Source: Candidula unifasciata
Taxonomy: Eukaryota > Mollusca > Gastropoda > Stylommatophora > Geomitridae
Direction of reading: 5' to 3'
Assembly: GCA_905116865.2 (NCBI GenBank)
Contig: CAJHNH020003135.1
Span: forward strand, 452,004 to 516,003
Length of the DNA: 64,000 bases
In this document: positions 5,101-26,100 of the stretch, one piece after another
Layout of the letters: every line of letters starts with the position of its first letter
Position numbering within the stretch: position 1 is the first letter of the stretch
Notes under the pieces: generated by a model
Seen by the model: the letters and a program-made list of their open reading frames with translations, nothing else
Told to the model about the DNA's origin: nothing
Databases searched by the model: none
Position numbers and translations under genes: made by a program

Positions 5101-8100
5101 GTTAGTTTAATATTTAGACAAACACAAAAGCTTTCTCCCTTTAGTTTTAGTCTGTCTGACCTGTCCGATCTCAGATGTGAATGAGTAATCTACCGTATTT
5201 CTGCTTTCAGGCAAAGTTTGACAATGGAGGCAACCCGCCATCCAGAGTTGTACACATTCGCAGCCTTCCCAACGATGCCGCCGAGACAGATGTGGTACAA
5301 CTGGGCCTGCCTTTTGGTAAAATGACCAATGTCTTACTGCTGAAGCAGAAAAATCAGGTCAGATTTTTGTCTAATGAGAACTGGTTAAATGTCCTAGTTT
5401 GTGTTATATATTTTAAGTGCCCCTAACGGCTGAACTCGAAAAAAAGAGATAAAAGCATTGGAAATGCGATCTTTCAAAAAAAAAAATTATCGGCATGATA
5501 TAGCGACAGCATCACAAATGACGAGGTTTCACGTATAATTGCCTGGCACATTGACGACTATGAAAAGGCAGAAAGTGCAATGGTGCGAACATGTAAAACA
5601 GATCTAACAGCCCTACAAAAAGAACACTAGGCTGCTCACTAGAGGAGAAGAGGCGAAGCAAGGAATCCTTGGATACAGAACTTGGCTGACTGGACAGGTC
5701 TTTAGAAGCTCATGACAACTGACCGTCAGAAGTGGATGGTTTTCATCAGACAGCAACTACTACTGACCCAGTGAAGCTGACTAATGAGGACTTGAATTCT
5801 GAATGCATCTGCCTGAGAGGCAAAGAACTAACGTTCGGCACAGAAATAAATGTGCTTGCAGCAGTCATGTTCTGTAACAATACTTATATATATCCATGAG
5901 TAGACGAACGCACTTGTTCTTTTTCCTGCTGAGTTAAGTCAGTGACTGAATAAAAGCATGGCAAGACACAAACTGGATTAATTGGTCATGTTTGTCACAT
6001 TGTAGATTGTTAACTGATGACCTCTAGAATGGATGAGGATCTGGCAAGTCTAGATTCACATGGCCTTACATAATTCTCTCCTGGTGGCTAGTCTCATTTA
6101 ACAAGGATGATACGGTTAATTGGGAGGTGTGAGTTTATGCAATGTGAGCAAGCAGTGAATGTTGCTACTGTCTACCAGTGAGGAGTATTGAGGAGTATTT
6201 GACACATTATAACTTCATCTTTTCTCCCTTGTGGAGAATTGTGAACATCTGTTTTTGGTTCCTGTGCTGACAGAAAGGACCTTTTTCCTCTGTCATCTTG
6301 GTGTTCCAGTCTGTAAATGGCTGTCAGAGTTCACTGTCTAGCAGTTTCATATCATGTCTATTATCATGTTCTGTAGAAATGCCATATATAGGTAACAGAC
6401 TGCTAATGTCTGTTTGCCATATCCAGTTTCACAACAGAGCAGAGAGATTTGAACTACTAGATAGCTTTTATCAAGGCTGATGTAAGGTTGTATGACAGAG
6501 GAAAAAAGGGGTCAGACCCTAAAGAATTGATTTATATGGCCAGACAGGCTATCTGGGACTTATTCCTCTGGGTGGATATCAAATATATGACTTGTGGAGA
6601 AGCCTAAGAGGCTGAGGTGAATTGAATTCCTGCTTGTAATACGGACTGTTTTGCTTCTTTTGTCTTTGAACATTTAAATATATCCACGCTATATTGTTTT
6701 AATGATGGTGGCCTCAAAAAGTTGACTCTGTGTTAATATAACATGTTGATGTGTTTGCAGGCGTTCCTGGAGTTCCAAGACGAGTCGTGTGCAGTCAACA
6801 TGGTCTCTTACTTCAGATCCAACGCCGCCCAGGTCCGCCTGAAAACTTGCTATGTCCAGTTCTCCACCCACAAGGAACTCAAGACTGACAGCTCAAACTC
6901 ACTGGTAGGTTGAGTGTTTCCTGGACGTTTCATGACTGATATACAGTATAAAGCTATTGCTGATATTAAATGCTGTTTGCTGTGCAATCGGACATTTCCA
7001 AGAATTATAATTTTTTAAAAATATATATATATTTATATATTATATCAGCACTTGCACACTCATTTCCTGTATCGTTATTTTTTGTTGTGGAACATTTTTG
7101 TTATTATTTAGGGAAGACTTGTGAATGAATAAAGCAGGAAGGGGTACTGGAAAGGCAGAATCTTAGACGGGCCTGCATGATTAATTTTAAACTTTTTGTA
7201 AATAAAGTTTGTTAGTCGTTTTAATGGTTTTATATGTAATTACGGGTTATGTCTGGCATCAGCAAATGAGTCAGTGTACATGTTGTCTGAAATCTGGAGT
7301 CTAACACACTTCTTCTTGTAACAGAACACCAGTGCTCAAGCAGCTCTGCAGGCCGCACAGGGGCTTCTGGGAGCCGTTGGTGGGGGCGGTGGCGAGACCA
7401 CCATCCTGCGAGTGATTGTTGACAATGTCCTTTACCCTGTCACCCTGGAGGTCTTGCATCAGGTAACATGCTTGAACTATCATCTGTTTTTATTGATCAT
7501 AAATCTGTACATATTTTTTTTTATAACTGTGTTGCAGTTTGTTTTGTATGGTATTAAGCTGGAATAAATATCTATTATTTTGTAAAGTCTAAGTTATGTG
7601 CTGTTTTATGACTGTTTTAACCTACAACATGAAAACATCTAATATTGAACGAGATTCAGAATTGAAGCAGACTAGTTGTTAAATAACTTGGTGCATTAAT
7701 TGGCTTATGTTCTGTATAGCATACTAATGAAATTTATGTGTATATAAATATATATATAAAGTAAAGAATATAAAAATAAATGTCACTGTTTCTCATTTCA
7801 GCTGTTTTCCAGATTTGGGAAGATACTCAAGATCATTACTTTCACCAAGAACAGTAAGTTAACAGCTGGATTCTCTTCACTTAGAACAGCAATGTCCCTA
7901 CTGCAAACATCTCTATATCACATTGTCATGGTCTCCTCCAGGTTGCCCTAGCTGGCGGTCAGCTCCAGGTTGCCCTAGCTGGCGGTCAGCTCCAGGTTGC
8001 CCTAGCTGGCGGTCAGCTCCAGGTTGCCCTAGCTGGCGGTCAGCTCCAGGTTGCCCTAGCTGGCGGTCAGCTCCAGGTTGCCCTAGCTCAGCGCAACAGC

Positions 8101-11100
8101 TCTCTAGTTAAGGGTAGGCTGTCACTGTTGTACATGTTTCTTATAACAGGACACTACTTGAGTAGGATCTGTCAGAGAAATTGTGTATTTGCTTATACGT
8201 GTAGGTTTAACCAAGATTTTGTCAGTTTTAATAATTCATCTAGCACAAGCTGTCAAACTCCCGTCCTCTTGAGAAAATATTTGTCTTGTGGTCATACATT
8301 AGGTTTAGACAAGATTTCGTCTTGATTTAATCCATCTCTCCTCAAACAAAAAGTGCACAAACATAACCCAGCTGATCTCAACACCTGTGAGCGATTGCCA
8401 CTTCCACAGCCCTCTGCTGTAGGTTGTTCCTGTGAAGAAGTAATAGAAATAGACTTCTTTAATGATGATAAATCACTGTCACCATACATGTGATTATCAG
8501 ATTCAATTATGTTTTTTGTATCAGGGAAAATCGGGAAAGAAAAATGCCTAAACTGTTCCCCATTGGCATCAAAGAAAGATCATTTCTTGAATTTACAATT
8601 TAACCATGCACATGCAGACTGAAATAATATCAATATATTCCTCCTATTTCAGTTTTGCATTTTGTCATTACCATCCATGGCTGGTGCACTCCTCTAGACC
8701 TTGCTGTTGTGGTCATATACTGCTGTTATGTGGCACTCATATTCCTGTATACTGTAATTTGTCTCTCTAATCTCCACTGCTGATGCTAAGTCTTGTTTTT
8801 TTCCTATCTACAGATACGTTCCAGGCACTGATCCAGTTTTCTGACCCTATTTCTGCTGCAGCTGCTAAAGATGTGAGTACTGCACAATGTTGGTGTGTTA
8901 TTTTGTTATAAATCTGTCTGATGAGACTGATTGATTCATGTCTCCTGCCTCATTACAGTGCTTGTAAGGCTTGTAGAGGGTGATGTCAATTGACTTAAAC
9001 TTGATGGAGATTTGTGGTGTTTGTTAAGAATCGTGTGTGTTGTTAGTTTTGTAACTAAGAGGGTGTAGGAGTCAGATTAAGAAGTGGCACCAATTAAATA
9101 ATGACAATTCCTTTAACTATCTAAAATCAGCTTACAATCACAGATATCTTGTCTGTTATGTTTCCATCTTGTCTGTATTCTTCCCATCCTTCCTATGTGA
9201 GCATTTTCAAGGGTAGTCTTTTACCTCTAAGAAGAGAATTGCAACATAGAGAAGGGGAGAGACGGACTAGTTGTGTATCCATGTTTGTTTGTCAACAGTC
9301 ACTTGACAACCAGAACATCTACAACGGCTGCAACACCTTGAAGATTGATTACTCCAGACTGACCAACTTGAATGTCAAGTACAATAATGACAAGAGCAGA
9401 GACTTCACCCGGCCTGACCTACCCACTGGCGACAGTATGGATAATGGTAGGTTATCTGCATCTTTCCTTTTCTGTGTGTATGCTTTGGCCGGGGAGGTGC
9501 TACAAAGCAGATTAACCCCTTTTATACCATAATGATCTTTAACAAATATGACAGTTTTTACAGATTTGGTTAAATATTCCTAAAATTCTCTGCAATTGTA
9601 ACATAAGAAAACGCTCCTGTGTGGCTTCTAGGGTCCCCTTATGGGGAAAACAAGAATAGACCCACTGCCTCACCATGTAAGTAAGTCAAAAGAGCTTCTT
9701 TCCAACTCTTGAGTACATCTTCTGAGTGGTAATGAAGCTGCACATAAATAATAGGTTCTTAATTTATAACGTACCCCAAACACGAAATCCCCGTGGGAAA
9801 TCCACAGCTGACCTGACAGTCCATTATTTAAAGGGGCGGCAGTGTGCTTTTTTTTTTTTTTTTTTTTTTTTTTGAGTGTTCATCTAGTGTCTTCTAATGG
9901 CTGTAGATAAATCGCGAGAAACTACAACCTGAACACCCTAGAATTTATTGGGAATGTCTCCCTTGACGTTGTCGTGACGTCAGGGGTAAGTTATAAATTA
10001 AGTACTCAATAATATAGTACACGCCAAACCCATACCCTGGAACAAAGGGTTTAACTTTTAGGAGCTTACAGCTGGTGAATCAATAGTAGAAGCTACAGAA
10101 ATTTGTAGTTTAGAAATGTTTAATGTCTAAGGAATCCAATGCCTAGACCATCGAGTATACAGGAAGCTGTGACGCATTCTTCACTGATGGTGTCATGATA
10201 CTTGGACACAATTTTTGTATACAGCCACCTAGTTTTTTGTTTTAAAAAAAACAGAAAGGTTTGTTTCTATGTGAAGAAAATAATTATTAAATTCAAACAA
10301 AGCCAAGAATTAACTCACATCCTTTCCTTTCACCATCTAAATATGTTTTGTCACCTGTTAACAAAAGACATGAAACATATGTGATCGCATGGTGGTGTCA
10401 CAGAACAAAATTCTCTCTAGCCACACAAATTGTGTTGCATACCATGCTGTTGTAACTAGCACCAAATGGCCACTTCACAAAGACATTGTTCCATTTTTGC
10501 TTGTGGTTTTTAAGTCAGTTGTGCAGAAGTTGCACCGTGGAAGAGATTGTGGCCTCGCAGCACAATATTCTCAAGGCAGCAACGGAAGGCTATAGCCAGC
10601 CTTAATTCTTTAGACTGCACAGAATGGATTTCAGTCGCAACACTGAAATTTAAAATCCCAGGCTAGTACGCATTTGATTATATTAGATGCATTTAAAGCA
10701 GTTTTTTTTTTAATGTCGGGCCACGCATAATGGGGGCAGTTCAAATATGGGCCCCTCCAGAGTTTAAGTAATGTGGGGGCATAAGGATGTTAGAAAGGCT
10801 TAGTCAAATATGAGCCCCTCCAGAGTTTAAGTAATGTGGGGGCATAAGGATGTTAGAAAGGCTTAGTCAAATATGGGCCCCTCCAGAGTTTAAGTAATGT
10901 GGGGGCATAAGGATGTTAGAAAGGCTTAGTCAAATATGGGCCCCTCCAGAGTTTAAGTAATGTGGAGGCATAAGGATGTTAGAAAGGCTTAGTCAAATAT
11001 GGGCCCCTCCAGAGTTTAAGTAATGTGGGGGCATAAGGATGTTAGAAAGGCTTAGTCAAATATGGGCCCCTCCAGAGTTTAAGTAATGTGGATGCATAAG

Positions 11101-14100
11101 GATGTTAGAAAGGCTTAGTCAAATATGGGCCCCTCCAGAGTTTAAGTAATGTGGATGCATAAGGATGTTAGAAAGGCTTAGTCAAATATGGGCCCCTCCA
11201 GAGTTTAAGTAATGTGGATGCATAAGGATGTTAGAAAGGCTTAGTCAAATATGGGCCCCTCCAGAGTTTAAGTAATGTGGGGGCATAAGGATGTTAGAAA
11301 GGCTTAGTCAAATATGGGCCCCTCCAGAGTTTAAGTAATGTGGGGGCATAAGGATGTTAGAAACGCTTAGGTGGGGCCTGGCGCAGAATAGGGTTGTGAA
11401 CCACTAGCTGAAGGATGAAAGTCATGAACTGGCTTTGTTTTAATGTGTGAAATGTTATTGCAGACATGGGCTATGGAGGTGGGCTCGGAGGCTTTGGTGG
11501 CGGACTTGGAGGCTTGGGCGGTGGACTTGGGGGTGCTGGTGTCCTTGGCTCTGGTGAGTGAGTGTACAATATCAATTATGTGTGTTCTTAATTTGATGTC
11601 ATAATTTTTCCAGTGTATATTTATTTTATACATTGCATATAATTCTTGTTCTGTCTCTCTGGTATATTTTTCATTTAAACATTCGATGAAAAATGGGTTT
11701 GGAGATATAAGTCTAGTTGGTTTAACTCTTGCAGCAGGCTCCCAGAATTGACGCGACCTATTTTAGAAAGTCAAAGGTAACCTGTGACCCTATATAGTAG
11801 AAGTAATCTTTTAATAGGGAATTCCAAAATGTTTTTTTTTTTCAAAAAGCAGAATATTAACAAATGTAAATTACAACATAGGTGAGTTAGTGATTTAAAT
11901 TATAACTGATTAACAAGCTCACAAATAGCAGAGAAAACCTTTGCCACCTGTCCGTCAGAAGCAAGACTAGGTAGATGTGACACAAAGAATCAACCAAACA
12001 CAAGCTGAACAGCACCTGCAGCTAGTGAACAAATCCCTGCAGGACATGATGGCTTGCTTTTCTGTTTTTTCTTATAATTTTCCCATCTGGCCCACTGCCT
12101 GGTAACTTCACAGAAGCCGCTTTACACCCCCATTAGGGGCCGTGACCCATGGAATGAGAATCCTTGACCCTTTGGTGACTATATTCCATCATTGGTCACA
12201 GACAGTACATTTGTGCTTGAGGTCATTACTGGTGCCTCAACAGTTTTGGCTTGCTGGCTCTCTCCTCTTGAACTCTGATCAATTGTCCCTATTCTTCTGT
12301 GTGCCTTTAAGAAATGACAGTGGTGTGGTTTACAGCATCATATTCCAGCACATTTTTAATGACTTAATTCTTGCTTGTGAAAGGGCTAGGTGTTTTCTTA
12401 CCCTGCATCTAGACACATCAAGGATATCTAGTATATTTTGTTTGTTGTTGCTTGTTTTTGATACAGGGGCCAATGCAATGGCGATGGCAGGTTTAAGGGG
12501 TCTCGGGGGTGACTTCAACTTTGGTGGAAACCAGCTGGGCAACCGACTGGGCAACATGGGTAACCTTGGAGGCATGAACCAGTCATCTGGCACTCCAGTT
12601 ATCCTAGTCTCTAACCTGGATGAAGAGGTTTGTTCTACATACTTTTTCTCATTGACATTCATTATTTCAATATAAATGTTAGGTTGCGATTTAATCGCTG
12701 ACTAGCAAGTCTCGGTTATGGCAGACTATTTCATTGGAAGGCTGGTTGGAAATGTGATGTTTCACATTTGTAGATCAACTAGTACTGGTAGCAATTCTGG
12801 GGAACATTGTGTGATGTTTTACCTTGGTTTTCTGTTGCGCACAGGGCTTTGCTTTAAACATCACATGCTGCGGATGTCATGACCAGTAACTATTTAGTAA
12901 TCGGGAAAAATGGCATGTCCTGTGAAAATTTGCAGTGAATGCAGCTGTTACCTTAGGGGTATGTGCTGTTACGAGAAGGCAGTCTAGTGTTATATATAAA
13001 AATAACTAGAATATAAATGACACATAATGTTGTTGAATGTTTGCCTGCGGGATATGGCTGGTGTCTTCATTTATTTATGTGCCTATTCCCCTTCTACTGT
13101 GCACCCTGAGGTGCAAGACTACTGGTCTGCTTTTGTGGCAATCTAAGAACGTACTGAGAGCATCACCTAATGTAAGTTATTAGGTGCCGGGGAGGGGAAG
13201 GCTGTGGGTCTACAGCTCTCTCCCCCCCCACACACACACACAAATGTCATGCAAATGGCGACTAATAAGAGCTTGCTGAAATTGGACATGTCAGACCGAA
13301 GGAAGTAGATATCACAGCCAAGCTATAAACCACAAAGTCAGCCAGTTATAGAATATTGGGTGCCTGTAGAAGAGGAATGCTGAAGCATGTTTTGTTGCAT
13401 GTCACATTGTTTGACTACTTGACAAGATTTTTGAGTACAAGCCATGTTTGCATGCACGACATCAGTTGTAGCCAGATTCCATAGGTACAGACATGTAGTC
13501 TTGGTTTTTAATTCGCTCCTACAAATACTCTAGTGTGCTTCGCTTGGACTTCATTTTGGGCAGTTGTTCCTAATTGGGCTCACATGACAGTGTGCAAAAG
13601 GCTGTGCGTTGATGGACTGAACTGAAAATAATTAAAATAATGCACTGGTTTTCTTCAGTAGGCTTGATAATATGCTCTGTAGTGCCGACATGGCTTAATA
13701 ATTCATAGCTATTCATCTAAATGTAACCAGTGGTCACAAGGTTGAATTGGGGGAGGGGGGGGGGGGGTGTGTTTCCCCATGTGCTAGAGACAAATAGCCT
13801 GGTATGCTTCAGATGGAGCAGGAAACATGGTTGAATTATTACAGAAGTAGTTGTGCTTCTCAGTCTACCATACAAGTCCTACTATGAAGTAAATGCTTAA
13901 CCCTTTCTCCCTAGAATGATGACCTAGAAAAAATGTCCCATAATTTTGAAAAAATGATAATTTAATACCAGGACTCATTTTCGACCCGAACCATTGGAAA
14001 CCAGTGTGACTTAAAAAATCATGACGTAATTTCTATGAATAAAGCCAGAGTATCAAAAGAAATCACGCACACATGCTATTTAAGTAACTATTATCATCAG

Positions 14101-17100
14101 TTCACTTGTTAAAGAATTGCGCACATGGAAACTGAATCAGTGCGTTTAGGGAGTATTCTTACAAACAAGAAGCAGTTAAATGGCCTTTATGTTGGCATGT
14201 CACACCGAAAAGGGTTTAGGTGCATTCTGGGACAATCAGGACTGTAGGAGAACTTGTGAGTCAAACTCCAAACTGATATTCTCACATGTGCTGTTTTGTT
14301 TTACTTTCTGTATTTCAATCTGAAGATTAGCCATTTTAGCACAGAAATAAGCACCTCATTTATTACTTAACTGATTCTTTTTCTTGTGTTGCAGCTTTAA
14401 ATCTCAATTGTCAACTCATTTGTTTCTTTCTATTTTTTTGTCTCTCACGCTACCCTGTCTGCAACAACCAACCAAATGTAATGCCTGCCCTGTCCTGCCC
14501 CAAATCTGATGTGTTGCTGGGCCACCCTTTTGTCTGACCTGATGCTGCTGCTGTTGTTGCTGCTGCTGCTTACCCGACCTGAACTGACTCAAACCTACCT
14601 CGTTAACATCACTTTGTCTCACGCTGCTCTGCCTGTAAACAAACATAATAAAATGAATTGAATGAAATAGAAAGTGACGCCAGACGCTCTGTTTGTACTG
14701 TTTGGTAGGTAGCTCTTACTGTTGTAAGGCAGTATTGATTTCTTGTGTTGCCATGGTTTCAGTGGTTCTGTTTTTGTGCTGCCAATAACCTCCACTATTT
14801 GTGGTGTCCAAAAAATTGTTTTTAATGGGTAGACACAGGTTGACTTTGTTTCTTGAGATCACATTGAATCAATCCTGCCATCGACGTGGTGGCTTGTTTC
14901 TTCTATATCTTCCCTCATCATGGGCAATTTGTGAACACAACAATGGGACATGCAGATGTTTCTATGTCAAACTTGGTGTCATAAACAGCAGAATAGAAAG
15001 GGGTTGTGGTGAAGTGGACTTCAAGACCGTTGTTGCTGAAATACTGTCTAGAATATTGGACCCACACTTGATGTTGTACATGAGCATTGGACATGGGGCG
15101 TTGTTTTTAGAGCAGATTGTGTGCCTGACAACATTGCCTTAGATGCTGAAATACTCAAATTATCTAGGTAGATTCTATTACATGTTTATTGTTTTATTTG
15201 GCCAGTTTGTTCTTTGGTGTCTGCAGCCATACATATAGATCATTCCCCTATTCAACAGTGAGGTTCTTTCATCAGTGTTAACCTTTGTCATAGTTGACAT
15301 TGTCTGCTTTCCTGTCACTACCATCGGTTCTAATTTGTCAGCCTCCCTCTTGTCAGGGCAGTTTGCTAAGTCCTAGCTGAATTGTTCTTGTTATTGGCAG
15401 CACTTTTGGGGGAAGGAGGAGGCTTGAAGGCGTTGAGAGTTCTAATTGGGGAGATCTGTGTGCGTGCTATATTTGTCATACATTTTATAGTGTACATGTT
15501 ATACACATTTTGTATGAAGGAATTGTCTTTCACATGGCTAGTGATCTATTTATTGAACTGAATTTTTTGTTTTTCATATTTAATTACAAAATATTATGTT
15601 CTCAAATTGCTTCGTTTCCTTCTTACCCTGATACATGTTTTTTTTTTTTTAATGCTAAAAGTATTTTTGTCCCAAACTTATAATGGAGTAAATGTTTGTG
15701 TGTGGCAATTGTACATTTTTAATGGTTATGGAGAAAATTTTTGTGTTTTGTTTTGCAATTGTACATTTTCTAATGGTTTAGTATTGTGTTGTTTGGATAT
15801 GTGTGTATATTTATATATAACAAGTTGTATTTGTACTGCACAGTATATTTTTTTCTCTTGTAAATGTACATTTGTATGTTTTTACCAAATGTAGAATATG
15901 TGAGAAGTTAATATTTTTAGATTGTCCGTGTATGCTTTTGTTACAATTTAGTTTTGTCTAGGTATTTAATGTTTTTCATCATCTGTCCAGGTAAGCCTTT
16001 TCTTTCTCTGTTATAGAATCTAGTAGTAGTGAATATATTTACTGTGAACTACTGGCAGTAGAAATCTGGTCTTGTGGAGAGTGTGTGGTAGACACATTAG
16101 AGATCCGAACCTTGTTCTGTATGCCAGATTTAAAGCAGGGATGAGGAAGTTATTCCGTGAGTGAGTACATGTCAATGCTCAGGGTAAGAATAGTCGTGCA
16201 CCACCGAAGTTGTGCAGCATGAAGTGCCTATGTCACCCTGGTCCATTAACTAGAACAAGACTGTTCTAGGATCCATATTTTGACTGGCAACATCTGGTGT
16301 GAGTTCTGCCGACATTGCGGAACAGTTGATATGCTCCAGGCTGGCGATACAGAGATCCTACCACAAGTGACATGTATCATGTCTCAGCAAAAGAACATCG
16401 TTGGTCTAGCTCACTGCTGACACAGTTTCTTGTAAGACCAGATAGTGATGGATAACGGACTGTAATCTGATCTGGTCTAAATGATGGGGCGGAGGATCAG
16501 AGCTGTCCACAAAGCACACGCTGCTCGCTAAATGGGTAAAAGAGTTCACTATGGTGGAGTGGCGGTAGTATACATGTGTGGTTTGGTCTAGTTTTGTGGG
16601 TCGAGTGTACTAGTACCAGATTATCACCACAATGATGCTGGTGCTCTTCTGTGTTAAGGGACAGTGACTAGAGTAGTGCTGGTGGGGACAACAAAGTATT
16701 TAATTTGGTTTTATTTAGTTCATCTTCATAATATAGCAGGGCTCTCACTATGTCTGACTGAAACTAGCTCGGTCTCTCGCTAGTGCTCACGCACTTTCAT
16801 AACCAAGGAGTTTCTTGTATCATGTGCCTAACTTTGTGCTTATCAGTCAGTCCCTGCCCCTCCCTTCTGCCATATGATGTTTTGTACGATCCACTGTAGT
16901 GCCTGACATAGCCAAACTATTTAAGATGAATGTTCCTTGATGTTCAGATCTTCTGTGATTTGGTTTTTCTTTTCTTATCCATGGTATTCTGAGAATCTTT
17001 CTATAGCATTTCAGCTTTTAAAAGCCTCTTTTTTTCTCCCTTAAGGACTGCAAGATCACCCCTAACTCACATCCTGCTGTTTAACCATAAACTTTGTCAC

Positions 17101-20100
17101 TCATTGTAATTTTTGCTTGACATGCAGTTTTATCGGGGGTTTTTTCTGCCTAAATTATTTAATCACCAGCAGTACTTCTAGTTTGTTCACAAGCTAATTT
17201 ACTCGAAAATATGATTTTTATTCCAAAATAGTTGATGTGTTGATTTTATGTCAGTACATAAATGAATTTGTGTGATTGTACAGGTGTGTATGGTAATGTG
17301 CACCGTGTGAAGATTCTCTTCAACAAGAAGGACAATGCTCTCATCCAGATGGCAGACCCAACACAGGCCCAGCAAGGTCAGTTGACAGCTCTATTGTCTG
17401 GGTGGTTGTTGTTGTTTTTTTTTCATTATTATACACATGCAGTGATCACATTGTTAGACAGGGCAGACTGGAGTGACATATGTGTTGTGCTGGGTGTGTG
17501 TTAGAGGCTGTGCTATCCTAATGTTACAGGTGGGTGTGTGTGTTAGAAGCTGTGGTATCCTAATGTTACAGGTGGGTGTGTGTTAGAGGCTGTGGTATCC
17601 TAATGTTACAGGTGGGTGTGTGTTAGAGGCTGTGCTATCCTAATGTTACAGGTGGGTGTCTGTGTTAGAGGCTGTGGTATCCTAATGTTACAGGTGGGTG
17701 TCTGTGTTAGGGGCTGTGGTATCCTAATGTTACAGGTGGGTGTGTGTTAGAGGCTGTGCTATCCTAATGTTACAGGTGGGTGTCTGTGTTAGAGGCTGTG
17801 GTATCCTAATGTTACAGGTGGGTGTCTGTGTTAGAGGCTGTGGTATCCTAATGTTACAGGTGGGTGTGTGTTAGAGGCTGTGGTATCCTAATGTTACAGG
17901 TGGGTGTGTGTTAGAGGCTGTGGTATCCTAATGTTACAGGTGGGTGTTAGAGGCTGTGGTATCCTAATGTTACAGGTGGGTGTCTGTGTTAGAGGCTGTG
18001 GTATCCTAATGTTACAGGTGGGTGTGTGTTAGAGGCTGTGCTATCCTAATGTTACAGGTGGGTGTGTGTGTTAGAGGCTGTGGTATCCTAATGTTACAGG
18101 TGGGTGTGTGTTAGAGGCTGTGGTATCCTAATGTTACAGGTGGGTGTCTGTTAGAGGCTGTGCTATCCTAATGTTACAGGTGGGTGTCTTAGAGGCTGTG
18201 GTATCCTAATGTTACAGGTGGGTGTCTGTGTTAGAGGCTGTGGTATCCTAATGTTACAGGTGGGTGTGTGTTAGAGGCTGTGCTATCCTAATGTTACAGG
18301 TGGGTGTCTGTGTTAGAGGCTGTGGTATCCTAATGTTACAGGTGGGTGTGTGTTAGAGGCTGTGCTATCCTAATGTTTAAGGTGGGTGTCTGTTAGAGGC
18401 TGTGCTATCCTAATGTTTAAGGTGGGTGTCTGTTAGAGGCTGTGCTATCCTAATGTTACAGGTGGGTGTCTGTTAGAGGCTGTGCTATCCTAATGTTACA
18501 GGTGGGTGTCTGTTAGAGGCTGTGCTATCCTAATGTTACAGGTGGGTGTCTGTGTTAGAGGCTGTGCTATCCTAATGTTACAGGTGGGTGTCTGTGTTAG
18601 AGGCTGTGCTATCCTAATGTTACAGGTGGGTGTCTGTGTTAGAGGCTGTGCTATCCTAATGTTACAGGTGGGTGTCTGTGTTAGAGGCTGTGCTATCCTA
18701 ATGTTACAGGTGGGTGTCTGTGTTAGAGGCTGTGGTATCCTAATGTTACAGGTGGGTGTCTGTGTTAGAGGCTGTGCTATCCTAATGTTTAAGGTGGGTG
18801 TCTGTGTTAGAGGCTGTGCTGTCCTAATGTTTAAGGTGGGTGTCTGTGTTAGAGGCTGTGCTATCCTAATGTTACAGGTGGGTGTCTGTGTTAGAGGCTG
18901 TGCTATCCTAATGTTTTAGGTGGGTGTCTGTGTTAGAGGCTGTGCTGTCCTAATGTTACATACAGGTCGGTGGCTGTGGTATCCTAATGTTACAGATGGG
19001 TGTATGTTAGAGGCTGTGGTATCCTGTTACATACAGGTGGGTGTATGTTAGAGGCTGTGCTATCCTAATGTTACAGGTGGGTCTGTGGTACAGGCTGTGT
19101 TGTCCTAATGTTAAAGGTGGTTTTGTGGGTGTTTGGCTGGATCGTTAGAGACTATCGTAATGTTAGAAGTGGTTCTATGAGTGTTTAGCTGGATAGTTAG
19201 AGGCTGTGTGTGTCCTAATGTGGAAGGTGGTTGCATGTCTTGCTGTAGTAACATTATGTTTAACATGTGAAAGTTCACTCCCAGCTGGAGCAGTTTCTTC
19301 TGTTTGCAGCCCTGCTGTATGTATTTCAGCCGTTGTGTGTGTGAGCTTGTTGCTGATATATGCATGTACTCTTTGCAGCCATCACTTATTTGGACAAGGC
19401 CCGTTTGTGGGGTAAACAGCTTCGCGTGGCTCCATCCAAACACCAGATGATCCAAATGCCTAAAGATGGACAGTCTGTGAGTTATGTTTGTTGCAACATT
19501 AATTTATGACCTAGAGAAATAGCCAGTCAGTCAGTTTAGTTGTAAATGAGTTTATCCCCGTGTGAGTTCTGGGGCCCTGTTGTAGGGAAACACAAGAAAC
19601 AGACTCCCTGCCCCCCCTGACGAGCATGATGTAAGAGCTTCTTCAAAGTTGAAGTATGTCTGCCGGAGAGGCAAGGAAACAAGAGTCTGCATACAAATAT
19701 GTGCATGCAACACCCAACGGTTCCAGCTGACAGGCTGTGCTGCTGTCACTGGCTCGAGCCAACGATGCAACATTAAAGCAGCGGTTCTCAAACTGGGTGG
19801 GGTGCTGCGGCAATAACCAGGTAAACAGCAACAGTCTAGAGACCATTAGTATCGGAACTCTTTGCTGGCTGCTGAAGATGGGGGACGTAGCCCTTTGGGA
19901 TGTCCCCGAGTGCTGTGATGACGGTTCTTGAATCAAATACAATCAAACAACAGTCCAGAGGTGGACGAACACCCAGAACAGTAGAAATACTGGAGTTCAG
20001 GTGAATGCGAAGAAGAAGAAAGAGTTAATTTTCATCGCACGATTTCACCCACTTCCTAATTCACAAACACCATGTGTAAATTACAGGGTTCGTAGTGGAC

Positions 20101-23100
20101 CGGGAAATCGGGAAATTACCGGGATTTTTTTCGTTGACCTTGAACCGGGAATTTAAGCTTATAAAAGACATTCCGACCTTAAAAACCCGTGAATTTTGAC
20201 CGCGGCAATGAAATCGTCAGAAATCCTGTGTTTTTCAGCACAGGCAATTTTGAGGGAGCCATTTGGCTTTTTTGGCCATTTGGCTAGTTTTTGGCTACTT
20301 TCGTTGTATGGTCGTTTCAGGTGTGAGGGCAGCTGATTATTGGCTATTTTCAGCCGAAATGGCTTGTTAAAGGCCAGGGGAGGGCGGGCTTTGTTGCTGA
20401 TCATGAAAACATGCAGACAGCAGCGGTGTGGCATGGGGCGGGAAGTAGCAGATTCCGTCTCGCGCGCGTGTGTGTGTGCCTTTGTTTCTAGCGAGTCCGG
20501 CAGAATGAACAGTTTAAATCGTTTATGGCCGTGGTTTCTAGAAAGGATTACATTGGGAGATGGTGGGGCTCGGTGCAGTTGTATTTATAAATAGAGTCGC
20601 CGTGGTGGGGGCTAAGCACGGCCTTCTCTATTAATTAGAGACGGCATTGGGGCTAAGCAAAGTGACTGCAGCTGGATTTCCCAGTTCTATTTTTGGCCTG
20701 GATTTATCTTTACAGTGTGTTTGGCGATCAGTATTGTAATTCCCCGAGATTCCCTCTTCTGTTGTCTCACCCCTCTCTCTCTCTCTTCCCTCCCTCTTTC
20801 ACTCTTCTACCTATTGCTCCTTCCTTCCCGTCTCCTGCATTGTCTCTAACCCTCCCTTCTGATCTTCATCTTTTTCTCTTTCTCTCTATCTTTCCTTTTA
20901 CTCTCTCATTTCCTGTCCCCCTCCCCGTTTTTCCTATTTTATTTCTTGTTTAAATGTTTAGTAAATGTGCGGCTCCATAACTCTTCCTAGCAACTCAAGT
21001 ACACAGGAAGTTGTATTGGGAGGGGGGGGGGGTGCATTCTGTGGGAACATGGTGGATATTTTCTTTTGATGTGTTTGTTTTCCTAGCGGCCTTAATCTCT
21101 GTCCATCTCCCTTCGCGCCCCCTCACATTTTGTCCTACCTGTTCCTCACTCTCTGACTGTCTGTGTCACTGCTTTCCTCTCTCTCTCTTTGTATTTGCCG
21201 CTCTCCCTCACTCCCTCCCTCTCTTTCTCTCTCTCTCTCTCTTTCTTTCTTTCTCCATACCTTCAGTTGGTGTATAAGGTTATGTGTTGCCTAGTGCAGA
21301 ACATTTCATGTCCATCATTCCCCCCTCCCACACATTAAATATATGTGTACTTTTAAAAACACATTTGCTGTCACCTCCCCCCCCCCCCCCCCCCCCCCCT
21401 TTTCTCCTCCCACATTGATGACACCTAGGGGAGGAAGTGCACCCCTTCCTGCTATCTTCTTCCCTCTATATCTCATCTTATTTCTTACTCCCTTCTTTCT
21501 CTCCCTGTCTCATTCCCACTTTATTTTCTTAAACTTTATTCTCTCACCTCCTCTGTCTCACCCTTACCACCTCAGCCTTCTACACCACTTTCCACCACCT
21601 CCTCTCTCCCCTCCTTTCTGTAATTGGAAAACCAGAAATAAAATGAAGTCCACTGCTGCCCTGACCTATTTATGTGTCTGACCTATTTATGTGTGTGGGT
21701 AAACTTCTCTATTTTCCACCAGTGGTGGGTTGGGATCCCCTGGACTTTTTTTTTCTTCATAAAATGACCTTGGCTCTCAGGTCACCAGCCTTAAGTGTAA
21801 GAAATTGAATTATTGTTGTCACACACAGATAGGACAAGCAAGGGGCAGTAGGGGTTAGCACTGTTGTTTTTGGACCACGGCCACATTCACATTGGGAGAG
21901 GGTAGGAACCGGAAAAGTGGCCTCACTTAGAGATTTCCTAATTCTATTTTGGGCACTCATTGTTCTTACACCCCCCACCCCCACAACCGTGTCTTACCTT
22001 TCTTCTCTCACCCCTTCTCTTTCCTTTGATCTTCTACTATTCTCCTTTCTCTCTCCATTCTTCCTCTCTTCCTTTCCTTGCCCTTTCTCCTGTCCCATCT
22101 CTTCTTTGTCTCCTCTCCATCCTGTCTTTTCATTTTCTCTAGATTTCCTTACCCGCTCCCCTCTCTCATTCTCTTTCCCCCCCCCCCCCCCCCCCCCCAT
22201 TTTTTTTTACCTGGTTCATCTACATATTTGTTTGCCCCATAACTATCTTTTCCTTGTGGTTGTGTCCACTACACTTGAAATTGTGTGAGGGGGGGGGGGG
22301 GGGGGGGGGGGTGGCTGTTTTTTTTTCTTTGAGGTATCTTGTCTCCCTTCCCTCCCCCCTCTCTTAATCTGTGTTTGTCACTGCCTTCCTTACCCACCTT
22401 TCTCTCTCTCTCTTGCTTTATGTCTGTTTGCCTCCCTTCATCACTTCCTCTTTGTATACCTCCCTCCCATTCTCCTGCTCTGCCTTTTTTCTCTTTCTTT
22501 GGTTCTCTCCCTCTGTCTGCTTGCCTCTCTGTGCTGTCCCTTTGTCTCTCTCTCCTTTATGTCTACATCTCTCTCTGCTTGCATCTGCTTCTCACCCTGT
22601 CCGTTCTCTCTCCCTCTGTCTCCCTTCTTTCAACTCTTTGTCATATTTTCCTCCTTCCATATCTCTGTTTCGTTCCCTTTTTCCTTCTCTTTTCATCTGC
22701 CCATCTCTGTATCTGCATTCCCTCTTTCTGTATTTGTCTCCCTCTCTGTCTTTCGCTGTCCCTTCCCCACTTTTCTTCATCATGTCTCCATCCCTCCCTC
22801 TCATTTTTTCCTCCTTCCCCAGACTTCTTTTCCTTCTTTTCTCTACCTTCATCTGTCCATCTTTACACTGTCTCTTCCAGCCTACCTCAGCATGTGTCTT
22901 CCTCTCTCTTCATGACTCTCTCTCTCTCCCCTAACCCTCTCAGGTACCAGGTCCAGAACAGACAGGACTTCAGTTTGCTGCCCTCTACCACCAAGCCCTA
23001 AAAAAAAATTTCAAACACTATATCAAGCTCAGGGGCCGACCAACACGAAGATGGACACAGGATATAAGTGACTCCTTGAGTATAAAAAAGTACATGAGGC

Positions 23101-26100
23101 GGGAGAGCTGGTGAGAGACCGAGTTTTTTTTTTTGTCAGGACAAAGGAAATGCTACATGATGATGATATCTGTGCTGGTATACCAACACATGTGGCACAA
23201 ATGAAGTACCTTGTGTGCTCAGTACACCCTTGAACAAGGCAAAAATCTTGTATTAGTATTACACCGAGACAACCTTGAAAAAAACTAAGGAGACCTTGAA
23301 AAAGACCTTAAAAAGCCTTGAAATTGATTGGTAAATTTGGCTATGAACCCTGAAATTATTTGTCCACTCACTTGTGGACCATTGTATGTCATCAGTAAGC
23401 TCTGATTGATATGAGAATGGCATCCACACATTTCTGTGATTACCTGTATATCTCAGGAGCTGCAGCTAGACTCACTTACCCAGCAGCTGCTGGTGGTGTT
23501 GATTGACTTGGTTTCCTCTGCCTGCCTGCCCTACATTGGGGAACCAGGTGATGTCCTGGCAAGTGAAGTGAGCTGGCCTGTGTTTAGAGCATCATCACCT
23601 GTTGAGTGGCGATTGGTCTGGAAAGCTGTAGCTTTGTGGCTAAATGGCCAATGCCTTTACTGTATTTATCTGTATATTTGTTTGAAAATTGTCTGGTCTT
23701 CACTAAACAGAAATGCATGTTTATTACTGAGTTGCCAATTGCTGCTATCTGTTCTACAGGATGCTGGGCTCACCAAAGACTATGTGAACTCGCCACATCA
23801 CAGGTTTAAGAGAGCTAGCACCAAGAACTACATCTTCCCACCCACGGCTGTGCTGCACTTGTACAATGTGTAAGTGTCTGTCCCGTGAACAACCTATTCT
23901 TATCTTGTTAGTTGAGATGCAGTGGGGCTGGAGCCACATACTGTAGCGCCTCAAACCCGCACTTATACTGGCATACATGGGACACCTCTCTCTGGTCGAC
24001 ACAGACTCCTGAGCAGGGGACCTGGCGAATGTAGGTATCATTAAGAGTTGAGGAACCAACTGTCTGCACACACACACTTGCCAGATTTGTAAAATGGATG
24101 TGCACCAGAAGTGGATGAATAAACATAACTTTCCACAGTTTACAGTCGGTGAATGTGAAGAATAATGCCTATAGTGGATACAGCAGTTGGCCCCAGGAGT
24201 CCAAGCTGCTTTGTGGCAAGAGCTCTGAAAACAGAGCAAAGTTGACAGTATCCTTTTGTTGATTAGGTGCACACACTGAGGGTTGTATTTAAAGTACACT
24301 GAAACCAGCAGTTGGATAGTAATCTTCTGGGTCAGAATCTGGTACATTAACATAAGCCATAGCTCACCTCTTCATCATAGTAATCACATGTGATATTAGG
24401 TAGGACAGGCACTGCGGCACATGAACATCGTGTTTGTTTGTTTCACCAAACAGGGCCACACTGGAGGAAGATGATATCCGCAGCATGTTCTCTCAGTACG
24501 GGACCGTGAAGGCATTCAAGTTTTTCAAGTGAGTACCTCGTGTTTTCTCTGTTACAAAATGATATTTCCCTGACAGGGTCAGTTGCGTGTGGTATGTTCA
24601 GTCACGACCATTTCCAGCTGACAGGCTGTGCTGCTGTCACCGGCTTGAACTAACAATGGGACATTAAAGCAGCGGTTCTCAAACTGGGTGGGGTGCTGCG
24701 GCAATAACCAAGTAAAGTCGGCTAAAAATTGTTAAATTATTAAAGAAGGCTTGTAGATACTTAAAAATTTGAAATTTAATTTTTCTTCACTCATCACTGT
24801 CAAAAAAGTTTATTTCTTGTTTAAGAACCACTGTGTTTACACATCGTTGGCCCAACCTGGGGAGGTCAGCTCGTCGGCTGAAGCCGGTCGTGGTTCAGTT
24901 GTATTGGGTACTAGAGTTTACTTTGCTCACTGGCGGGGGACTGAAATGACTGCAGAATTTGATCATTGACCAGAGATGCAGTTTACTGTAAACATGGTGC
25001 CACCGTAGAAGTCTCAGATGATGCTACACGTTATAGACTGCGACACAGGGCTGCTGTAAGGTGTCTGATTCAAAGCCGTTCCTGATTGTGTCGGTTACTC
25101 ATGGATAGATTGGGAGCAGAAACATCTGCTTGTTTATAAAACCACTTTACATTGAAATCTTATTGCTGGGTTTAATTATTCTTTAATATACTTGTAGGAT
25201 GTTTTAGATATACTATATATATAAATATTAATTTATATTTTTTTTTTTTACTATTGTTTACTTACGTGTGTATGATTTTGTATAGGTGTAAATGAATGTG
25301 TGTGTGTGGTATGACTTACATGTATGATTGTGTGTGTGTGTGTGTGACGTGACTTACATATATGATATTGCCCACAGCAATGACAGAAAAATGGCTCTCA
25401 TCGAGATGTCTACGGTGGAAGAAGCTACTCTGGCCCTTATTGTGAGTACAATCTCTCCTTTATTAGTTTTGTTAGTGTCGGTGTGCAGGAGTACTTAGAT
25501 ATTTAGTGCTGTTGCACAGCTGGTAACTGCAACAGTTCTCCCTGACCCGTGTGGTACTTCCACTTTTTGTCGCGTTTTTCTGAAAAAGATGATGCAGCAG
25601 AGGAAGAAGCTGTTTTGCTTTTAGAGTAATTAAGAAAGCAGACATCAAAGGACGTGGTGGGGGTTATGGATTAGAGGTATGGTCAGTCTCTGTCATAAGT
25701 CACAATGTTTGGTTCAGGTCACAGATCAACATCATGGCACAAGGGCAGTAACCCACAAGTGCTCCGTTCTACTTCTGACTCAAGCCTGAGTCCAGAGAAT
25801 CTCAGCACAGTGCACAAACTCTGTAGCACCGGCGAGATGATGATCTTGTTTGCACATCTAGAAATCAAGGGTTAAGGCAGTCCACTGACACGGTGGAATG
25901 ATTCTTTGATTACACCTGCATATGGGCTTCTAGGGGTCTGTGATACATACACCTGCATATGGGCTTCTTGCTGTCTGTGATACATACACCTGCATATGGG
26001 CTTCTTGCTGTCTGTGATACATACACCTGCATATGGGCTTCTTGCTGTCTGTGATACATACACCTGCATATGGGCTTCTTGCTGTCTGTGATACATACAC

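Follow-up and report, generated by a model that had tools for sequence, protein, structure and literature searches.

Exon 11 of vertebrate PTBP1 and exon 10 of PTBP2 are both 34 nt long. PTB represses its own exon 11, which leads to nonsense-mediated decay (NMD), and this is the textbook feedback loop known from vertebrates. Exons with distant branch points are marked by AG exclusion zones. For human PTBP1 exon 11, the paper by Gooding (2006, PMC1431707) gives a zone of 381 nt and a branch point, UACUGAC at -351, that was verified by mutagenesis, and it lists AG exclusion zones of 438 nt for nPTB and 590 nt for Fugu. According to the same paper, PTB regulated each of the few distant-branch-point exons that had been studied experimentally by then, and human exons with such a layout have a raised probability of alternative splicing. 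Exon 10 of human ROD1 (PTBP3) apparently has a conventional branch point at -21, and Spellman (2007, PMC1940037) reports no EST evidence of its skipping. As this equivalent exon seems conventional, a length of 34 nt alone is weak evidence. In the literature on non-vertebrate PTBP, with subscription papers mostly outside our reach, we found no report of an AG-free zone or of skipping of this 34-nt exon. Here, the known PTBP1/PTBP2 device is extended to a mollusc, the snail Candidula unifasciata.

The whole stretch of C. unifasciata DNA that we analysed (the window; 64,000 nucleotides) contains a PTBP gene, whose translation of 493 residues is 100% identical to residues 32 to 524 of the annotated C. 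unifasciata PTBP, P0001; the N-terminal 31 residues lie outside the mapped part. Pfam finds the RRM domains of PTB in the protein, which is thus a PTBP relative. The gene and the exons that matter most here are as follows.

5211-28174, forward strand: PTBP gene, 15 coding exons found, GT-AG introns
5211-5357, 6761-6904, 7325-7462, 7802-7853, 8814-8872, 9299-9446, 11464-11553 and 12467-12627, forward strand: coding exons 1 to 8
14671-14704, 17284-17376, 19379-19476, 23760-23869, 24454-24528, 25378-25441 and 28106-28174, forward strand: coding exons 9 to 15
12467-12627, forward strand: coding exon preceding the 34-nt exon, ending in ..VSNLDEE, phase 0, donor GTTTGT
14671-14704, forward strand: 34-nt exon in RRM3, reading AAA..TTT G, 11 residues plus one base
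17284-17376, forward strand: following exon, skip frame VCMVMCTV and then TGA at 17308-17310

Since the 34-nt exon is present in the annotated protein, its inclusion junctions belong to the published gene model; according to PMC8496239, the Candidula annotation combined RNA-seq, homology and ab initio prediction. Rfam gave zero matches at gathering score across the window, and ten longer open reading frames picked from the window's list had no Pfam match over the cut-off. Two introns hold unusual sequence. Within intron 19477-23759, about 2.2 kb (window positions 20680-22880) is pyrimidine-rich on the sense strand, with 53 to 85% C+T per 200 nt and 10 of 11 bins at or above 62%. Such a tract in a PTB gene is possibly a PTB sink, or merely repeat-derived. 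Positions 17491-19127 are a minisatellite of about 40 copies of a 40- to 42-nt unit, and its consensus across the unit junction, CCTAATGTTACAG/GTGGGT, has a branch-like site, a 3' splice site and a 5' splice site head to tail.

The placement of the 34-nt exon in RRM3, proposed by an earlier sequence-only reading of this DNA, is confirmed. Its acceptor AG is at 14669-14670, its donor is GTAGGT, and its residues align with RVTPQSLFILF of human PTBP1 RRM3 (PDB 1qm9 and 2adc). From -5 to -24, the acceptor side is 25% pyrimidine, the lowest value among the 14 acceptors measured, the other 13 having 45 to 85% (14 of the 15 coding-exon acceptors of the gene were surveyed, that at 11464 being left out). 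The A-rich acceptor side that had been described is not common to the three paralogs introduced below, which have 55 to 65% pyrimidine at the same acceptor. Joining 12627 directly to 17284 places the TGA 66 nt before the end of the following exon, and translation confirms the stop after eight codons that had been predicted. A frame shift upon skipping is not special in this gene, because 8 of its 13 internal coding exons have lengths not divisible by three.

What sets the exon apart lies upstream of it, in the following features.

14355-14394, forward strand: candidate competing 3' splice site, complete-looking, with AACTGAT, an 11-nt pyrimidine run and GCAG
14395-14668, forward strand: AG exclusion zone of 274 nt, closed by the AG at 14393-14394
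14413-14446, forward strand: predicted distant branch point (AACTCAT, A14418, -253) and adjoining U-rich tract
14582-14588, forward strand: alternative branch-point candidate AACTGAC (A14587, -84), matching 6 of 7 consensus positions, with a weaker U tract

There is indeed no AG between 14395 and 14668, and the coordinates given earlier hold. From the composition of this zone (A63, C77, G42, T92), 9.7 AG would be expected; GA, with the same expectation of 9.7, occurs nine times. None of 200,000 composition shuffles was free of AG, and the absence is thus beyond chance. The flanks are different, with 18 AG (15.9 expected) in the 275 nt before the zone and 9 (13.4 expected) in the 274 nt after the exon. 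At the other 14 acceptors of the gene, the AG-free zones measure 23, 37, 23, 33, 21, 26, 40, 33, 27, 31, 26, 43, 90 and 643 nt. The last of these precedes the last coding exon, whose acceptor is normal and pyrimidine-rich, and consists of a 39-bp tandem array (27145-28075) that ends 30 nt before this exon; the AG-free runs of 330 and 643 nt are a product of its repetition. The AG-free runs in the window that are longer than the zone (643, 487 and 330 nt) come from tandem repeats or purine-poor tracts, so AG-free length alone is not evidence.

Stronger evidence comes from the other PTBP genes of the snail. A search of the Candidula genome, in which counts are lower bounds, gave PTBP matches at at least four loci: the window gene, C2887, C1147 and C3132b. 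C2887 encodes P0009, with 7 of 12 matched stretches at 100%, and C1147 encodes P0122. The further gene C3132b (G000:C3132, about 551000-573000; L011, L015, L016) lies on the window's own contig, with the first of its exons that was found about 71 kb past the window gene's end; its nearest relatives in our tree are two Bradybaena proteins, and no matching Candidula protein was among the matches listed in the PTBP protein searches. In all four copies found, exon 14671-14704 or its counterpart has exactly 34 nt, which together with the RRM3 alignment supports the proposed correspondence to PTBP1 exon 11 and PTBP2 exon 10. In the window gene, C2887, C1147 and C3132b, this exon is preceded by AG-free zones of 274, 239, 309 and 265 nt, where 9.7, 8.1, 10.0 and 9.0 AG are expected and none is seen, as against 9, 12, 7 and 8 GA; AG is the sole dinucleotide absent from each. 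For comparison, the zones at 19 further acceptors of the three paralogs span 16 to 80 nt; this set leaves out the exon preceding the 34-nt exon in C1147 and C3132b and exons beyond the fetched stretches. In C1147, a repetitive AG-free run of 376 nt stops 36 nt short of the matched part of this preceding exon, whose acceptor may therefore also have a long zone made by repeats. Over the window and the paralog loci (both strands, 131 kb), there are 16,774 gaps between AGs, and 23 of them reach 200 nt. Only four gaps combine at least 200 nt with at least 6 expected AG and at most 5% repeated 12-mers, all of them the PTBP zones; of the three limits, that of 200 nt was written into the script, and the others were picked once the table had been seen. 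Next in line come a non-repetitive gap of 200 nt with 5.0 expected AG and, on the minus strand, a partly repetitive gap of 312 nt with 5.3.

These copies are old. In a tree of 32 proteins, whose root serves for drawing only, one clade (a; 11 rows, 100/100) holds the window copy and C2887, and another (b; 11 rows, 100/100) holds C1147 and C3132b. Each clade contains both pulmonates and sacoglossan sea slugs, and the two PTBP lineages therefore separated before the pulmonate/sea-slug split. Alignment of the zones gave scores of 41.5 and 11.0 within clades and of -3.5, -13.5, -16.0 and -16.0 between them, compared to shuffle maxima of -2.0 to -6.0. Some similarity between clades remains, since all four scores exceed their shuffle means and that of the window and C1147, as the only one, its maximum. 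Zones that have largely diverged between clades and still lack AG would be expected if selection acts on scanning from a remote branch point. Because the AG-free zones occur in four copies, stand out among the non-repetitive gaps and belong to clades that predate the pulmonate/sea-slug split, it is very likely that the remote-branch-point exon is real and maintained. The anatomy proposed by the sequence-only reading, an AG exclusion zone with a remote branch point, is thus supported by retention of the zone across an old duplication. Among the fetched proteins, two from Bradybaena similaris (P0044 and P0046; 19593 and 19594) are distinguished by a single lysine where the 34-nt exon begins (EEATPD versus EEKATPD); they are perhaps isoforms made through a NAGNAG-type alternative acceptor.

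The branch-like motifs CTCAT and CTGAC that had been noted 80 to 255 nt upstream were found again, CTCAT at -253 and CTGAC at -134 and -84. In the window gene, there is no YTNAY closer than -50 to this acceptor. Upstream of the -84 candidate 5.3 AG are expected, downstream 3.7, and none is observed on either side. A branch point at -84 alone would therefore not explain the absence of AG over the upstream 187 nt. All four copies have a branch-like site with a U-rich tract near the 5' end of the zone, namely ATCTAAC at -238 in C1147, CTCTAAC at -237 in C3132b and, as a weak match of 4 of 7 consensus positions, CAATCAT at about -236 (counted by hand) in C2887. The first 80 nt of each zone are also richer in T than the remainder (0.41 to 0.46 versus 0.29 to 0.33). 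An RNA structure bridging the branch point to the acceptor was not supported in the four zones (z of 0.67, -0.34, 0.74 and 1.59, with 60 shuffles each).

In three of the four copies, skipping of the exon leads to a stop after eight codons, the tails being VFMVTCTG before TAA in C2887 and ESMEMYRE before TGA in C3132b. The modelled product of C1147 runs for 47 residues before its stop because its valine codon is GTC. The tail has eight residues because a GTG or GTA valine codon precedes AAR, and by itself this length is no regulatory signal. When part of the window skip product was used to search a protein collection, 454 matches were obtained. Among the best 120, which were listed, there are 53 without a recognisable start of RRM3, 26 inclusion forms, 15 whose end is precisely the eight-residue skip tail, 3 in the skip frame with another length and 23 with other ends. 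All 15 eight-residue tails fit the codon pattern imposed by the frame. Eleven of these proteins are vertebrate by name or by nearest fetched relative, and four are arthropod or arthropod-like: P0183 of Chironomus riparius, P0201 of Diaphorina citri, P0149 of Menopon gallinae (a record marked UNVERIFIED_CONTAM) and P0214, which is 80% identical to P0224 of Anopheles farauti. P0214 comes from a contig of 2,043 bases that we read as assembled cDNA; in the skip forms P0183, P0201 and P0149, a small exon may have been overlooked by gene prediction. The best 120 of the 454 matches contain no mollusc skip product. A search aimed specifically at skip tails of molluscs gave no match at E<=10 either, and its power was low, as it scored a 98-residue artificial region. 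In viral_contigs and genome_contigs, no match encoded a PTBP outside the snail (single protein, alignment A1).

The motif counts do not point to PTB inside the zone. UUCU, UCUU and CUCUCU occur 12 times in the four zones, compared to 22.5 in dinucleotide shuffles (P<=0.003), so that enrichment of PTB motifs within the zone was rejected. Given these counts, PTB as a direct repressor inside the zone is not supported. Over the 300 nt that follow the exons, the same motifs show a mild excess (36 versus 24.8, P 0.022), and they number 18 versus 13.6 in the 300 nt before the zones (P 0.14); these P values are uncorrected, and six regions were tested. Over-represented in the four zones are GCUG (23 versus 7.9), partly as a CTG run in two of them, and UUUU (24 versus 11.5).

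Taken together, the snail 34-nt exon is in our judgment probably a frame-critical cassette exon with a remote branch point that acts as an unproductive-skipping switch, as in vertebrates. The branch point would lie near the 5' end of the zone, with A14418 at -253 as the best candidate and the U-rich tract after it, and the spliceosome would have to bridge about 250 nt to the acceptor at 14669-14670. Because any intervening AG would serve as acceptor, purifying selection would keep AG out. A weak, remote 3' splice site would make inclusion of the exon adjustable. Inclusion would give PTBP, and skipping from 12627 to 17284 would shift the frame to the early stop, with NMD as the expected outcome. 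The exon would then work like PTBP1 exon 11 and PTBP2 exon 10, and we infer control by PTB proteins, either the product itself or its paralogs. For the autoregulatory switch put forward earlier, the anatomy and the frame shift with its early stop speak in favour, and the depletion of PTB tetramers inside the zones speaks against. We consider unproductive skipping likely in snail PTBP, and PTB feedback on this exon plausible, with about even chances.

It is also conceivable that the branch point is remote and the exon nevertheless constitutive, the zone being kept since an ancestral distant branch point forbids upstream AGs. The snail evidence concerns avoidance of AG, for which distant branching alone suffices; the mollusc proteins reaching RRM3, among the matches listed, are only inclusion forms; and the PTB tetramers are depleted in the zones. 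We still think this unlikely, as human exons of this kind are more likely to be alternatively spliced (PMC1431707), the vertebrate counterparts are regulated, exactly skipped products occur in four arthropod proteins, and the acceptor side in the window gene is unusually weak, though not in the paralogs. Another unproductive route could start at the boundary of the zone, where the AG that closes it belongs to the candidate 3' splice site at 14394. This site looks strong, with 80% pyrimidine, a pyrimidine run of 11 nt and AACTGAT at -21. Its use would create a 310-nt exon with an immediate stop (predicted product LDEEL and then a stop), and in competition with the remote site this could be the main route, skipping being secondary. 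The close paralog C2887 has a similar site at the same boundary (TCCTAAT, TTTTCTTCCATTACAG). C1147 and C3132b have no comparably strong boundary site, judged by eye, so the site is not the shared element, and no protein with an LDEEL end was noticed among those fetched. It seems quite unlikely that this is the main route; the 14394 site may serve as a decoy or offer a further unproductive route. That the AG-free stretch is the result of chance or low complexity is extremely improbable. The window does contain longer AG-free runs, one of them before another exon of the PTBP gene itself, but these are tandem arrays or, for the run of 487 nt, a tract with only 2.8 expected AG, whereas the four PTBP zones are non-repetitive and have 8.1 to 10.0 expected AG each. 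This explanation was rejected, as no other gap in the survey shares their combination of length, expected AG and low repetition.

The age of the arrangement is a separate matter. The arthropod and vertebrate skip products favour, without proving, a bilaterian ancestry of the switch, and the AG-free zone itself may descend from the common ancestor of molluscs and vertebrates. We tentatively suggest, at slightly less than even confidence, that the bilaterian ancestor already had a PTB exon switch with a remote branch point, which selection has since kept for the absence of AG and not for sequence. With four snail paralogs carrying it through duplication and a large turnover of intron sequence, and with few canonical PTB sites inside, its conserved core would be the geometry of the branch point, and the factors or sites that control it may differ from those of vertebrates. 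Alternatively, vertebrates and gastropods may have gained distant branch points independently at an old 34-nt exon, because a PTB-sensitive 3' splice site would be favoured in a gene of the PTB type. Human ROD1 exon 10 shows that the exon may lack this layout (PMC1940037). However, the exon is the corresponding one in both groups, its junctions agree (as read from the skip tails), the branch region lies at a similar position, the arthropod skip products are there as well, and a single origin is simpler; we regard convergence as somewhat unlikely.

As splice-site geometry is kept in the four mollusc PTB copies found, the age and generality of the PTB loop become testable, and an AG-free zone before a 34-nt exon offers a simple comparative test for any animal genome. 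The locus is also a clean case in which function seems to be conserved as the absence of one dinucleotide while the surrounding sequence changes.

Compared to the known systems, the snail exon most resembles PTBP1 exon 11. Both are 34-nt RRM3 exons with similar residues and an AG exclusion zone, both have a branch point (in the snail a predicted one) with a U-rich tract near the zone's 5' end, and in both skipping shifts the frame to a stop in the next exon after a tail of eight residues, which in orangutan P0195 reads ASTATCSA. The snail differs in having a zone of 274 instead of 381 nt, a branch point that is predicted only, zones depleted in PTB tetramers and an extra candidate 3' splice site at the boundary. 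Human PTBP3 (ROD1) exon 10, the equivalent exon, apparently lacks this layout, whereas the four snail copies found keep it. ROD1 exon 2 is a different 34-nt exon, with a zone of 168 nt, and is skipped in many ESTs (PMC1940037). Like the snail exon, human PTBP2 (nPTB) exon 10 has 34 nt, and PMC1431707 and PMC1940037 give it a zone of 438 nt and a predicted branch point at -389. In mammals, it is associated with an ultraconserved region (PMC1940037), whereas the snail zones have largely turned over between clades. PTBP2 exon 10 is cross-regulated by a paralog, and by analogy the snail paralogs might regulate one another in the same way.
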